From: Psychroserpens sp. SPM9
GTDB lineage: Bacteria > Bacteroidota > Bacteroidia > Flavobacteriales > Flavobacteriaceae
Direction: 5' to 3'
DNA: 64,000 nt
Assembly: GCF_025153525.1 (NCBI RefSeq)
Contig: NZ_JANZNR010000001.1
Coordinates: 558,001 to 622,000, forward strand
Shown: positions 1,822 through 36,723 of the stretch, one piece after another
Layout: every line of letters begins with the position of its first letter
Position numbering within the stretch: position 1 is the first letter of the stretch
Notes under the pieces: generated by a model
The model's database searches: none
Seen by the model: only the letters and a program-made list of their open reading frames with translations
What the model was told of the DNA's origin: nothing
Position numbers and translations under genes: made by a program

Positions 1822-2247
1822 ACTTTGTCGTTTAAAGCTTGATTAAAACACTATAAAAACTAAAATATCTTGTTTACATTTAGACTTAAACGATTACCAT
1901 ACATACTAAGTGTCTAGGTATCAATCCCAAAAAACCTTCGAAATTAAAGACTAAAAAGTTGTATTGATTCTACAATTCTGGGTTTAACAATACATTAACG
2001 TCATGGAAGAAACATCATGTGAAAGGTTTACAAAGTAAAGCCGACCAACATTGGGAAGCTATGAATTTAAACTAATAGTTTAGAGTTCTATGAAAAAGAA
2101 GGATTAGCTTCTATAATAATAGTTGATTGGTTAATGTTAAACGTCCCGTGATTACGGGACGTTTTTCTTTTATATAAAATAACATTAGTGTTTTGAAACC
2201 CGTTCAGAATGACGATACAGTTAGGTTAAAACAAGGCAACTATTCAT
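1822..2247. other. 426-bp intergenic region with a gene-like remnant and repeat fragment
   Basis: No convincing gene is present. A short open stretch at 1968-2075 (+) reads WKKHHVKGLQSKADQHWEAM near its end and has protein-like composition, but it has no start codon; it may be the tail of a decayed gene or chance. A strong hairpin follows at 2139-2166. Bases 2195-2215 (GAAACCCGTTCAGAATGACGA) match one arm of the palindromic repeat found inside leuS. Confidence 0.4.
2139..2166 (+). terminator. Intrinsic terminator, plus-strand orientation
   Basis: AACGTCCCGT / ACGGGACGTT with a 4-nt loop, followed by TTTCTTTT. It lies about 320 nt beyond the acyltransferase stop, so either that transcript has a long 3' region or a short unrecognised transcript ends here. 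Confidence 0.7.
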
Positions 2248-21384: not shown

Positions 21385-24300
21385 TTAACCTACAATATTG
21401 ACGATTTTTCCAGGCACAACAATTACTTTTTTAGGCTCGCGCCCATCCAATTGAGCGATTGTTTTTTCATGAGCCATGACTGTTTTCTCAATGTCTTCCT
21501 TCGTCATATCTAAAGGTAATTCTAAGGTAAAACGCATTTTTCCATTAAATGAAATTGGATAATTCTTACTGCTTTCGACGAGATGTTTCTCTTCAAACTT
21601 CGGAAATGCTGCTGTTGAAATCGATTCGGTATGACCAAGTCGACTCCATAATTCTTCAGCAATATGTGGTGCATAAGGTGAAATTAAGATTAGTAACGGT
21701 TCAAGAATGGCCTTGCTGGTACATTTTTGAGCAGTTAACTCATTCACGGCAATCATAAAAGTTGATACAGAGGTATTGAACGAAAAGTTTTCGATATCTT
21801 CTTCAACCTTTTTAATGGTTTTATGAAGCGTTTTCAGACTATCTTTTGAAGGTTCGGTATCACTAACATTTAAACCATTGTCACCAACATAGAGTTTCCA
21901 GAGTTTTTTAAGGAAGCCGTGTACACCTGTGATCCCAGCTGTATTCCAGGGCTTGGCTTGTTCTAATGGTCCAAGAAACATTTCGTAAAGGCGTAAGCTG
22001 TCGGCACCATATTGCTCGCAAATAGCATCTGGATTGACGACATTGTATTTGGACTTGGACATTTTTTCGACTTCGCGTCCTACTTTATAAACACCATCTT
22101 CTAATTCAAATTCAGCATCTTTAAACTCAAGTCTCCAATTTTTGAAAGCTTCAATATCTAATTCATCTGAAGCATTAACAAACGAAACATCAACATGAGA
22201 ATTACTAAATGGAGTCATAAGATGTAATTCCTTTTTATTAATTTTATTTAATAAGCTTTTTTCAATATAAGGTTTAACAATATCTGATGCTAAATTTGTC
22301 TTATTGCCTTCAGAATGGATTCTATCGTAAGATTCTCTTGAAATAAAAACACTCTTTTTATTTACTAATACTTCTTTGGTATTTTGGTCAATGATTGAAT
22401 AGAAAATATAATAAACAAAAGCACTCGTTCCCAAAATCATCCCCTGGTTAATCAGCTTTTTAAACGGCTCTTCAACATTGACAAAGCCTCTGTCTTTCAT
22501 AAACTTCACCCAAAATCGTGAGTACAACAAATGACCTGTGGCATGTTCGCTGCCGCCAATATATAAATCGACATTTTCCCAGTAGTTCAAGGCATCTTCG
22601 CTTGCAAATGCTTCACCTCTATTGGCTGCTTCTTCCATATACCTAAAGAAATACCAGGAACTTCCTGCCCATCCTGGCATAGTATTGAGCTCTAAAGGAA
22701 AGACATGCTCATGGTCAATCAATTCATTTGAAACAACTTTATTATTCTTTGTATCCCAAGCCCAAACATCGGCACGACCTAAAGGCGGTTCACCTTCTTC
22801 GGTTGGCAAGTATTTCTCTACTTCTGGCAACACGATTGGCAAATGTTTTTGTTCAATCATTTGCGGCATCCCATTCACATAATACACAGGAAATGGTTCA
22901 CCCCAATAACGTTGACGAGAAAACACCGCATCACGTAATCTATAATTGGTTTTGCCTTCGCCTTGGCCCAATTGCTCCAATTCATAAATGGCACGTTTGG
23001 TGGCTTTTTTATAATTCATTCCGTTAAGGAAATCACTGTTGGCAATTACAGTCTTTTCTTTATCTGAAAAAGCTTCTTCGGAAATATCGACACCTTCAAA
23101 AATATTAGGAATCGGAATATCAAAATGTTTGGCAAAATCATAATCACGTTGATCACCACATGGAACACTCATCACAGCTCCTGTTCCGTAGCCAGCCAAG
23201 ACATAATCACCAATCCAGATTGGAATTGGCTCCTTTGTAAACGGATGCTCCGCATAAGCACCTGTAAAGGCTCCAGAAATAGTTTTTACATCTGCCATAC
23301 GATCGCGTTCGCTACGTTTTGCAGTGGCTTCTATATAAGCATCGACGTCTGCTTTTTGAGCTTCGGTTGTGATTTTTGACACCAATTCGTGTTCTGGCGC
23401 CAGCGTCATAAACGACACTCCGTAAATGGTATCGGGTCTTGTTGTAAAAACTTCGATCTTGTACGGATGAGATTCAGAAACAAGTTCGGAATGAGGTTCA
23501 CTTAAGTCATGCTGAACGTGTTTCAGCATCTCACTTGTCATGTTGACATTGAAAGTCACAGATGCACCAACCGACTTGCCAATCCAATTGCGCTGACTTT
23601 CCTTAAGTGAATCGGTCCAGTCTATCGTATCTAAACCTTGAAGCAAACGTTCAGCATAGGCCGAAATTCGCATGCTCCATTGGGTCATTTTTTTTCGAAT
23701 TACCGGATGTCCGCCACGTTCAGACACACCATTAACAATTTCATCATTGGCTAAAACGGTTCCTAGTGCCGGACACCAATTCACTTCAGTTTCGGCCAAA
23801 TAGGTCAATCGGTATTTAAGTAATATTTCCTGTTGCTGTTCTGAAGAAAAACCGTTCCAGTCTTCCGCAGAAAATTCGGCTATAGCATCATCACAAACCG
23901 CATTCACTTTTGTGTTTCCTTCCGACGCAAACTTTGAAATTAAAGTCTCAATGGGTTCGGCTTTATTGCTGTCGTTATTATACCAGGATTCGAACAACTG
24001 AATGAAAATCCATTGCGTCCATTTATAATATTCGGGATTGCTCGTACGTACTTCTCGGCTCCAATCGAATGAAAATCCGATTTTATCGAGTTGTTTCCTA
24101 TAGCCTTTTATGATATTATCTTGATAATTATCATCTTTAATGTTTACGGGAATATTTTTGTCAATTAAGGCTTCATTTTTAATACTTCCATCCTCATTAA
24201 CATATTTTTCTAAAATCTTATTTTCATTACTTAAACATCCATCAATGTTTATCTCAGTAGTAATTTTTGGATGCAATCCCGTTTGAATCGCATATTGCTC

Positions 24301-24555
24301 GGCAGGCAAACCAAAACTATCATAACCCTGAGGATGCAAAACATTAAAGCCTTTATGGCGCTTGTATCGTGCATAAATATCACTGGCAATATAGCCTAAT
24401 GGATGACCAACATGTAAGCCTGCTCCACTCGGATAAGGGAACATATCTAATACATAGTATTTAGGTTTATCACTATTGTTTTCAGCTTTAAATGTTTGGT
24501 TATCGGCCCAATAATTTTGCCATTTCTTTTCGATCTCGTTAAAATGATAACTCAT
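21385..24555 (-). CDS. leuS: Leucine--tRNA ligase, enlarged by insertions
   Basis: A class I synthetase of 1056 residues with HVGH at 48-51, the editing-domain element TTRPDT at 371-376, GTGAVMSVPCGDQRD at 457-471 and KMSKS at 831-835. It charges tRNA-Leu and edits mischarged products. Flavobacterial LeuRS is usually about 920-950 residues, as I recall; the excess comes from three stretches: about 103-149 (after the HPKITTE segment), 338-365 (a translated palindromic repeat at the entry to the editing domain) and about 715-785 before KMSKS. The frame stays open, all catalytic motifs are intact, and two promoter elements are present, so it should be functional. Confidence 0.96.
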   Translation of the reverse strand: MSYHFNEIEKKWQNYWADNQTFKAENNSDKPKYYVLDMFPYPSGAGLHVGHPLGYIASDIYARYKRHKGFNVLHPQGYDSFGLPAEQYAIQTGLHPKITTEINIDGCLSNENKILEKYVNEDGSIKNEALIDKNIPVNIKDDNYQDNIIKGYRKQLDKIGFSFDWSREVRTSNPEYYKWTQWIFIQLFESWYNNDSNKAEPIETLISKFASEGNTKVNAVCDDAIAEFSAEDWNGFSSEQQQEILLKYRLTYLAETEVNWCPALGTVLANDEIVNGVSERGGHPVIRKKMTQWSMRISAYAERLLQGLDTIDWTDSLKESQRNWIGKSVGASVTFNVNMTSEMLKHVQHDLSEPHSELVSESHPYKIEVFTTRPDTIYGVSFMTLAPEHELVSKITTEAQKADVDAYIEATAKRSERDRMADVKTISGAFTGAYAEHPFTKEPIPIWIGDYVLAGYGTGAVMSVPCGDQRDYDFAKHFDIPIPNIFEGVDISEEAFSDKEKTVIANSDFLNGMNYKKATKRAIYELEQLGQGEGKTNYRLRDAVFSRQRYWGEPFPVYYVNGMPQMIEQKHLPIVLPEVEKYLPTEEGEPPLGRADVWAWDTKNNKVVSNELIDHEHVFPLELNTMPGWAGSSWYFFRYMEEAANRGEAFASEDALNYWENVDLYIGGSEHATGHLLYSRFWVKFMKDRGFVNVEEPFKKLINQGMILGTSAFVYYIFYSIIDQNTKEVLVNKKSVFISRESYDRIHSEGNKTNLASDIVKPYIEKSLLNKINKKELHLMTPFSNSHVDVSFVNASDELDIEAFKNWRLEFKDAEFELEDGVYKVGREVEKMSKSKYNVVNPDAICEQYGADSLRLYEMFLGPLEQAKPWNTAGITGVHGFLKKLWKLYVGDNGLNVSDTEPSKDSLKTLHKTIKKVEEDIENFSFNTSVSTFMIAVNELTAQKCTSKAILEPLLILISPYAPHIAEELWSRLGHTESISTAAFPKFEEKHLVESSKNYPISFNGKMRFTLELPLDMTKEDIEKTVMAHEKTIAQLDGREPKKVIVVPGKIVNIVG
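23469..23532. repeat. Palindromic repetitive element inside leuS
   Basis: Two 26-nt arms, 23469-23494 (GAGATTCAGAAACAAGTTCG...) and 23507-23532 (TCATGCTGAACGTGTTTCAG...), are imperfect reverse complements around a 12-nt centre, and each arm is itself partly palindromic (TTC.GAA units). In the leuS frame it encodes MLKHVQHDLSEPHSELVSES. Related arms occur at 2195-2215 and 36705-36723. This matches a dispersed intergenic repeat I recall from many Bacteroidota genomes. Confidence 0.8.
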
Positions 24556-36704: not shown

Positions 36705-36723
36705 TCCCGAAACAAGTTCGGGA
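36705..36723. repeat. Palindromic repeat in the greA leader
   Basis: TCCCGAA / TTCGGGA with a 5-nt loop. It resembles one arm of the element inside leuS (GAAACAAGTTC core) and so is probably a partial copy of the same repeat family. Confidence 0.55.

Follow-up and report, generated by a model that had tools for sequence, protein, structure and literature searches.

The leucyl-tRNA synthetase gene (leuS) of Psychroserpens sp. SPM9 raises the question of how a palindromic repeat came to be translated within an essential enzyme, and what carries such repeats through a genome. The gene lies on the minus strand at positions 21385-24555 of the window, as we call the whole 64,000-nt stretch of DNA that was analyzed, which was taken from a genome of 3.81 Mb in 41 contigs (hereafter G000). 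It is an open frame for a protein of 1056 residues, whose product scored 879.6 bits against TIGR00396 (cut-off 548.4) and carries the Pfam editing domain PF13603 at residues 322-524, according to the profile search. The frame is intact and runs straight through a 66-nt pair of inverted palindromes (23468-23533, minus strand), so that the initial annotation was correct in placing a palindromic element in frame in leuS.

Inspection of the sequence, together with repeat search and folding, indicates a head-to-head dimer of CGTC-type palindromic arms, lying in opposite orientation with their heads inward. Arm A, TGAGATGCTGAAACACGTTCAGCATGAC (23506-23533, minus strand), is read as EMLKHVQHD, and its best other genomic copy is 96% identical over 28 nt. 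Arm B, TCATTCCGAACTTGTTTCTGAATCTCA (23468-23494, minus strand), is read as HSELVSESH, and its best other copies are 93% identical over 27 nt. The two heads are separated by a spacer of 11 nt (23495-23505, minus strand), and the peptide of the whole dimer is EMLKHVQHD-LSEP-HSELVSESH. An inverted-repeat tool delimited 27-nt arms at 23468-23494 and 23507-23533, which are 81% complementary and 12 nt apart. Both arms are palindromic in their own right, with a stem of 8 bp around a loop of 5 nt; arm B has one mismatch. When the 66 nt were folded as single-stranded DNA, the energy was -11.4 kcal/mol (z = -3.0), and 2 of 200 shuffled sequences folded equally well.

The peptide occupies a variable loop of residues 338-364 (23464-23544, minus strand), in place of a hairpin turn of 5-6 residues in relatives. 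This position was obtained from comparison within the genus and from alignment with the Thermus thermophilus enzyme (1h3n), where the gap falls at about residue 237, ahead of the IPVFTTRPD strand. From GKSVGA to RPDT there are 51 residues in this LeuRS and 28 in genus relatives with a plain loop; the net gain is therefore 23 residues and not the approximately 28 first estimated, because the old loop of 5-6 residues gave way. The insert sits in the beta-hairpin turn where the editing domain leaves the core. An AlphaFold model of this LeuRS places the insert between predicted strands 331-337 and 365-371, but the model is poor overall (mean pLDDT 56.0). The same dimer, with few changes, is found in leuS of another genome of the genus (G001), and the frame being kept in G000 and G001 suggests that the extra residues are harmless. 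In a scan of named genomes, which possibly does not cover the genome itself, the nearest LeuRS sequences were those of Lacinutrix, Winogradskyella and Aestuariibaculum, with 75-76% identity in the best segment.

We searched the 66-nt dimer against its own genome and obtained 47 matches at E ≤ 10, only one of which had the full length; the other 46 covered 13 to 36 nt, and the weakest of them are probably due to chance. Since the whole dimer is single-copy and the other matches are arm-sized or shorter, the repeating unit is the arm of 26-28 nt. The whole element, first described as a 64-nt genomic repeat, was accordingly rejected as a repeat family. Further genomic copies of the arm do exist as foreseen, the exact pattern GTCANNCTGAANNNGTTTCAGNNTC occurring 30 times in this genome and its reversed control 0 times. 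Single arms prevail among the other genomic matches, and the leuS copy is head to head. Within the window, a 22-nt consensus arm with up to three mismatches matched once, in leuS, and never in 100 shuffled sequences. Two related arms had been pointed out elsewhere in the window; sequence matching identified the one at 2190-2214 (minus strand) as a decayed single arm with a GACG head, and the one at 36705-36723 (minus strand) as a palindrome related to the arm but without a preserved head.

The expectation that the repeat is mostly of intergenic type agrees with the finding that, at 24 of the 30 arm loci of this genome, no open frame of 80 codons or longer covers the copy. Such a frame is present at the remaining six, which are leuS and five others. 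A PrmC-type methyltransferase contains the arm peptide as ...DDILNP-GHAELVSASH-YYDIIVSNPPYV, by reading just ahead of NPPY; further in-frame copies lie in a 3-hydroxyacyl-CoA dehydrogenase, near the N-terminus of a DJ-1/PfpI protein, in a frame without a Pfam match, and at the N-terminus of a small methyltransferase, where the copy is possibly outside the true start. Read in all six frames, the consensus arm is open in three (one forward and two reverse), which is why the peptides EILKQVQHD, GHAELVSASH and VMLNLFQHH recur.

CGTC-tagged REPs are a published class which, according to the parts of Di Nocera et al. (2013, PMC3733652) used here, includes Rickettsia RPE-4 and RPE-6, so that the likeness to Rickettsia palindromic elements drawn at first is apt. 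The same parts of that paper describe an unpaired CGTC head, often TGTC or CCTC, a stem of 8-9 bp beginning with AT, a loop of 4-5 nt, a tail that is mostly CCA, and a predominance of head-to-head dimers, and state that these REPs are 'apparently' without a dedicated transposase. A CGTC or GACG head is found in the majority of the 30 genomic copies, and the heads in leuS have drifted to CCTC in arm B and AGTC in arm A. The stem of arm A is ATGCTGAA / TTCAGCAT around a loop of 5 nt, and that of arm B has the one mismatch. In most genomic copies the tail is TCTCA or TCACA; since this does not fit CCA, as most but not all published tails do (PMC3733652, same parts), we name the repeat CGTC-type by structure and place it outside the four published families. 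Taken alone, the leuS insert is another case of a known repeat class.

A RAYT was rejected as the mover in this genome, where PF01797, which we take to be the Y1 transposase domain of RAYTs, had 0 matches at E ≤ 0.001; five of the 23 genomes of the genus have a match. A 92-residue GIY-YIG nuclease gene (PF01541) of the same genome has inverted arms on both sides, CGTCATGCTGAATTTATTTCAGCATCTCA upstream and TGAGACCCTGAAACAAGTTCAGGGTGACG directly past the stop codon. Its neighbors are presumably trpB and trpA, with the gene between them, and among the seven PF01541 matches in the genome only this arm-bounded gene matches its own homologue query. Homologues at E ≤ 1e-8 were found in 192 of 299 family genomes. 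The best 30 close homologues were scanned for arms in the orientation seen here, with the upstream arm CGTC-first and the downstream arm GACG-last, i.e., with the GTC head pointing away from the gene. Using 130-nt windows, we found an arm upstream in 22, downstream in 24 and on both sides in 19 of the 28 usable loci (L270 and L288 were dropped because their coordinates gave no frame). The control, 31 arms in 67,200 nt lying more than 300 nt away or about one per 2 kb, is inflated because any GTC-headed hairpin was counted, the window alone giving 14.

With a strict arm pattern, all 26 usable loci of the best 30 had an arm within 150 nt, and there were 127 matches in 7,800 nt near the gene, 31 in 59,902 nt far from it and 53 in 637,819 nt of leuS loci. 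The strict scan dropped 4 of the 30 close and 13 of the 40 divergent loci, which its ORF pattern missed, and the 3,839 nt of far DNA in the divergent set are too little for a control. Orientation was taken from the orientation-aware scan only, because the strict pattern can match one palindrome on both strands, near and far alike. By the orientation-aware scan, both arms were present in 14 of 40 more distant homologues. Grouping by eye indicated that subfamilies of the nuclease tend to carry their own palindromes: TGTCATTCCTGC..GCAGGAATC with YYLYIL-like proteins, TGTCATTCCGCAC..GCGGAATCC or similar with several of the YYVYILSN type, and TGTCATGCTGAA..TTCAGCATC with most of the YWVYI(L/I)TNKP type, L312 being an exception to the pairing. 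In L268, L276 and L287, a head-to-head dimer stands on each side of the gene.

Other small GIY-YIG genes adjoin tRNA genes and are flanked by directly repeated tRNA ends (L260, 1413-2200, and L262, 1453-1794; in G000, contig C33 at about 430.2 kb and contig C22 at about 431.6 kb). In one case, three copies of a 70-nt stretch that contains the 3′ end of tRNA-Arg are spaced by 359 nt with nuclease genes between them; in the other, the repeated sequence is 25 nt from the end of a tRNA-Met. These units look like mini-elements targeting tRNA genes.

The presence of arms was compared with that of the nuclease in the 299 family genomes. Where a close GIY-YIG homologue was present (E ≤ 1e-30), 37 of 40 genomes contained the exact arm pattern; where all homologues were distant, the figure was 57 of 152, and among genomes lacking any match it was 12 of 107 (close versus rest, Fisher P = 7e-16). 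Shared descent makes these counts non-independent, which the P value ignores, and arms flanking the nuclease gene were counted too. Five or more arms were present in 26 of the 40 genomes with a close homologue, versus two of the 107 without a match (7 and 14 arms).

Homologues of the nuclease were also found in 33 plasmid records, all with less than 60% identity. Twelve were examined, the other 21 including two Neisseria gonorrhoeae, Aeromonas, Photobacterium and near-duplicates. Inverted CGTC arms stood on both sides within 250 nt in nine of the 12, all from Alphaproteobacteria, the main source of CGTC REPs according to the parts of Di Nocera et al. (PMC3733652) used here. The nine are Sinorhizobium meliloti, Novosphingobium, three Sphingobium, Rhizobium, Azospirillum, Shinella and Neorhizobium; the three Sphingobium loci are not independent, since their neighbors are the same. 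A tenth alphaproteobacterium, Sinorhizobium K101, had one unconvincing hairpin, and no arms were found in the 250-nt flanks of the Planktothrix and Spirosoma homologues.

One shared intergenic site lies ahead of a gene that we take to be bioA, judging by its start ...RDKKHLWHPLTQH. The order arm-nuclease-arm was found at this site in 10 of 13 loci, from ten genera, a proportion that means nothing because 12 of the 13 were chosen for holding a GIY-YIG gene. At the same site, 7 nt separate the two arms of G000, which has no gene there (L009); in L293, the arms are separated by about 70 nt in which no gene was recognized; and L290 has another palindrome pair. The arm pairs without a gene look like gene-less derivatives, or precursors, of one unit. 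A second shared site is marked by a TrpB-like C-terminus, found in 6 of the 30 GIY-YIG loci and in five genera (L266, L267, L269, L270, L272 and L275).

From these results we consider it likely that the leuS insert is a head-to-head dimer of CGTC-type REPs whose arms are moved by the 92-residue GIY-YIG nuclease. That CGTC REPs spread through the genome and are occasionally caught in frame inside genes is the best explanation for the copies described above. We propose the nuclease, to which the initial annotation did not extend, as a candidate mover of the family; the circumstantial support for its moving the arms is good. The nuclease would recognize the arm, perhaps as a hairpin or cruciform, and would cut beside the CGTC head, and the cut would lead to copies of the arms, or of the arm-nuclease-arm unit, at new sites. 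In leuS, the dimer may have survived in frame because the loop tolerates insertions. In the parts of PMC3733652 used here, the means by which CGTC REPs move was still an open question in 2013, and it becomes testable in vitro because a specific nuclease lies between inverted arms in two phyla, loosely matched by subfamily.

The leuS loop was readable in 22 of the 23 genomes of the genus (21 by script and G022 separately; in G017 it is split over contigs). The plain 84-nt form was present in 11 of the 22, and the rest consisted of four with a CTGAA-type palindrome (G000, G001, G006 and G003, the second arm differing in the last two), three with another short palindrome-like sequence, one with another insert and three with a DUF559 domain. 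The survey was extended to 170 leuS genes, made up of 150 family rows (150 of 164 matching genomes were taken, 146 being parsed by script and 4 by eye) and 20 more of the genus. Ninety-eight were plain, 6 had a CTGAA-type pair, 18 a DUF559-sized cassette, 18 another short palindrome-like sequence, a weak class defined by ad hoc peptide patterns, and 30 something else. This comparison within genus and family upholds the view that the in-frame peptide of this essential gene is sited at a loop that is missing from relatives or filled by something else in them. The fillers are unrelated sequences of very different length, and make the loop up to about 180 residues longer.

In the named-genome scan, 57 of 80 loci could be parsed at the loop; the uncounted 23 did not match the anchors, and none of them is Flavobacteriaceae by name. 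Cellulophaga baltica DSM 24729 has a DUF559 cassette at the loop. A groundwater Bacteroidetes MAG with 58% identity has a palindrome pair of the same kind there, judging by its peptide RHPELVSGSQEMLKQVQHD. The loop is therefore an insertion hotspot for unrelated inserts, including a whole nuclease, a point that goes beyond the earlier description, and it appears to tolerate insertions. Length also varies elsewhere in LeuRS. At residues of about 104-149, the present enzyme has a 45-residue insert (DGCLSNENKILEKYVNEDGSIKNEALIDK...) absent from the other genus members read; an 11-residue version occurs in G007 and G004, and a clear relative in another genus (G224, L101). At residues of about 715-785, ahead of KMSKS in what is presumably the leucine-specific domain, the span from KLINQG to MSK ranges from 86 to 170 residues in the genus, with unrelated sequences.

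DUF559 was found in 187 of 397 family genomes. In the best 30 loci, which are a non-random sample, 21 domains lie in open frames of at least 374 codons and nine are free; the hosts identified by profile include LeuRS (L412), MetH (L061), HisD as a C-terminal fusion (L096) and HemD as an N-terminal fusion (L084). All 18 in-frame cassettes among the 170 leuS genes lie at the one loop. By eye, a hairpin-like arm is present at each end of the 16 intact leuS cassettes and of that of C. baltica, and in 11 of these 17 cassettes, but not in the other 6, the end-to-end inverted-repeat score exceeded that of every one of 50 shuffles. The cassettes of L211 and L245 have no recognizable arms and have lost the aspartate of E-x-D, presumably the motif of the DUF559 nuclease, with the frame kept. 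In C. baltica LeuRS, DUF559 was the sole Pfam match between the LeuRS domains at E ≤ 1e-8, and the AlphaFold model has a mean pLDDT of 59.9, with block means of 60-86 in the DUF559 domain. Two MetH proteins are worth recording here: that of L081 has two in-frame DUF559 domains at two different places, and that of G009 (L061) has a cassette and a palindrome-type peptide near GHAELDSASHKE.

On the LeuRS tree, which is weakly supported (33 of 167 branches starred), the 18 DUF559 carriers need 18 changes, at least 11 of them forced by starred branches; 500 of 500 shuffles were as low (mean 17.3), so that the carriers are as scattered as random labels. On a tree of the 36 DUF559 domains caught by our search pattern, the uncaught ones being dropped, the leuS-borne domains need 3 changes versus a shuffled mean of 12.4, and the five metH-borne domains form one side of a branch, as do the nine free ones. 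DUF559 identity follows LeuRS distance only loosely (Spearman -0.32 for the 16 intact copies). Recurrent transfer into one leuS site is the best explanation for this pattern, the alternative being that the cassette entered long ago and was cleanly lost many times. Related nucleases patchily distributed at a single site are a trait of homing genes that the leuS cassettes share, and the pattern looks like homing of DUF559 at the loop. As a mover of the arm family, DUF559 was rejected, since G000 has no DUF559 match and the strict arm pattern did not occur in the 52,050 nt of 16 free DUF559 loci; the palindromes found next to those loci are of another type than the leuS arms.

Arms beside the GIY-YIG gene could also mean that the nuclease inserts into arms. 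It would then be a parasite of the repeats, a homing gene that places itself next to or into REP arms moved by something else, and this we regard as unlikely. The recurrence of the gene at the same intergenic places, ahead of bioA in ten genera and beside a TrpB-like C-terminus in five, is homing-like; IS elements targeting REPs have been published (PMC1525189, in the part consulted); and the dimer on each side of the gene in L268, L276 and L287 points in the same direction. Several counts also speak against the nuclease as mover: two of the 12 genomes with arms and no nuclease match have 7 and 14 of them, only 14 of the 40 distant homologues have both arms, the subfamily pairing has exceptions, and 3 of the 12 plasmid homologues have no arm or an unconvincing one. 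However, a parasite of the repeats predicts that arms are frequent without the nuclease, whereas any arms at all were found in 12 of 107 such genomes and five or more in 2 of 107, compared with 26 of 40 genomes with a close homologue. Moreover, a complete arm stands on each side in inverted order, and not one arm split in two, and this genome has no Y1 transposase, with one present in 5 of the 23 genus genomes. Movement of the arms by the GIY-YIG nuclease thus remains the reading we prefer.

For the leuS loop, it is quite possible, though we lean slightly against it, that the site is a homing target of DUF559 cassettes, and perhaps of palindromes, and not merely tolerant. Cassettes at one loop in 18 of 170 genes, scattered on the LeuRS tree and grouped by host on the DUF559 tree, favor a target; the decrease of DUF559 identity with LeuRS distance is what partly vertical descent gives, the LeuRS tree is weakly supported, the two other variable places in leuS indicate that general tolerance is real, and the short palindromes come from several families, a fact that speaks against their having a common target sequence. 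Recruitment of the insert to alter LeuRS function, e.g., editing or drug sensitivity, would suit its retention in frame with few changes in G001, but a conserved role is difficult to reconcile with the unrelated sequences, differing widely in length, that occupy the same place, and we consider it very improbable. Least credible of all is removal of the extra residues at the RNA or protein level to leave a mature enzyme without the insert. LeuRS is essential and the inserts of some relatives are large, which would favor splicing; against it, Rfam at gathering thresholds gave 0 matches in five insert-bearing leuS loci, with no splicing domain or catalytic RNA found for the cassettes, inspection revealed no intein-type ends, and the 66-nt dimer is far below known intron size.

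With tolerance of the loop and movement by the nuclease as our preferred reading, a wider one can be put forward, for and against which we see about equal weight. GIY-YIG and DUF559, which are unrelated small nucleases, may drive two families of hairpin-ended mobile elements: the former would move CGTC REPs in Bacteroidota and Alphaproteobacteria, filling the gap of the missing transposase, and the latter would home and persist in LeuRS and MetH as a translated, unspliced domain. The DUF559 cassettes would need no splicing because they are sited where an essential protein tolerates a domain, and, if this is true, their lifestyle would be intermediate between inteins and free-standing homing genes. 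Certain unusual insertions in tRNA synthetases and other housekeeping proteins would then be living mobile DNA and not adaptations.

The literature was searched by title and start of abstract, most subscription papers lying outside the search. Within this scope, no paper tied GIY-YIG to a REP or palindrome, the word GIY-YIG was absent from the REP and REPIN papers found, and no DUF559 paper treated embedded cassettes. In the parts consulted, a Moraxella genome paper (PMC9465073) mentions both GIY-YIG and RAYT, each in its own row of a gene table, the stem 'palindrom' does not occur in the paper on the GIY-YIG superfamily (PMC1564403), and a review of prokaryotic MITEs (PMC10969869) contains neither a word starting with 'nuclease' nor CGTC. 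The link between the nuclease and CGTC REPs appears to be new within the literature searched.

The present repeat resembles CGTC-tagged REPs, including RPE-4, RPE-6 and Neisseria dRS3, in its 8-bp stem beginning with AT, 5-nt loop, unpaired GTC-type head and, for the leuS copy, head-to-head dimer, and in being mostly intergenic with some copies in frame within genes, including those of tRNA synthetases. It differs in its Flavobacteriaceae host, in a TCTCA tail instead of CCA, and in the nuclease gene between inverted arms. The RAYT/REPIN system likewise combines a small REP-flanked nuclease gene with many gene-less copies, but it has a GTAG head and a Y1 tyrosine transposase, neither of which is present here, where the head is CGTC, the nuclease belongs to an unrelated family and PF01797 is absent. 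Translation within proteins (leuS, the PrmC-type gene and other frames) is shared with Rickettsia palindromic elements, the kinship being drawn through the published CGTC class. EDxHD or Vsr-like homing endonucleases, which we take to be a superfamily related to DUF559, occur in introns or split genes, whereas DUF559 lies here in frame inside LeuRS and MetH. The ShiLan element in a phage methylase is, in the part of the report consulted (PMC11855218), also a homing-type nuclease insertion that keeps the host frame and has no known splicing element; its nuclease, however, is hidden out of frame, whereas the DUF559 domains described here are in the host frame of bacterial housekeeping genes and have hairpin-like ends.
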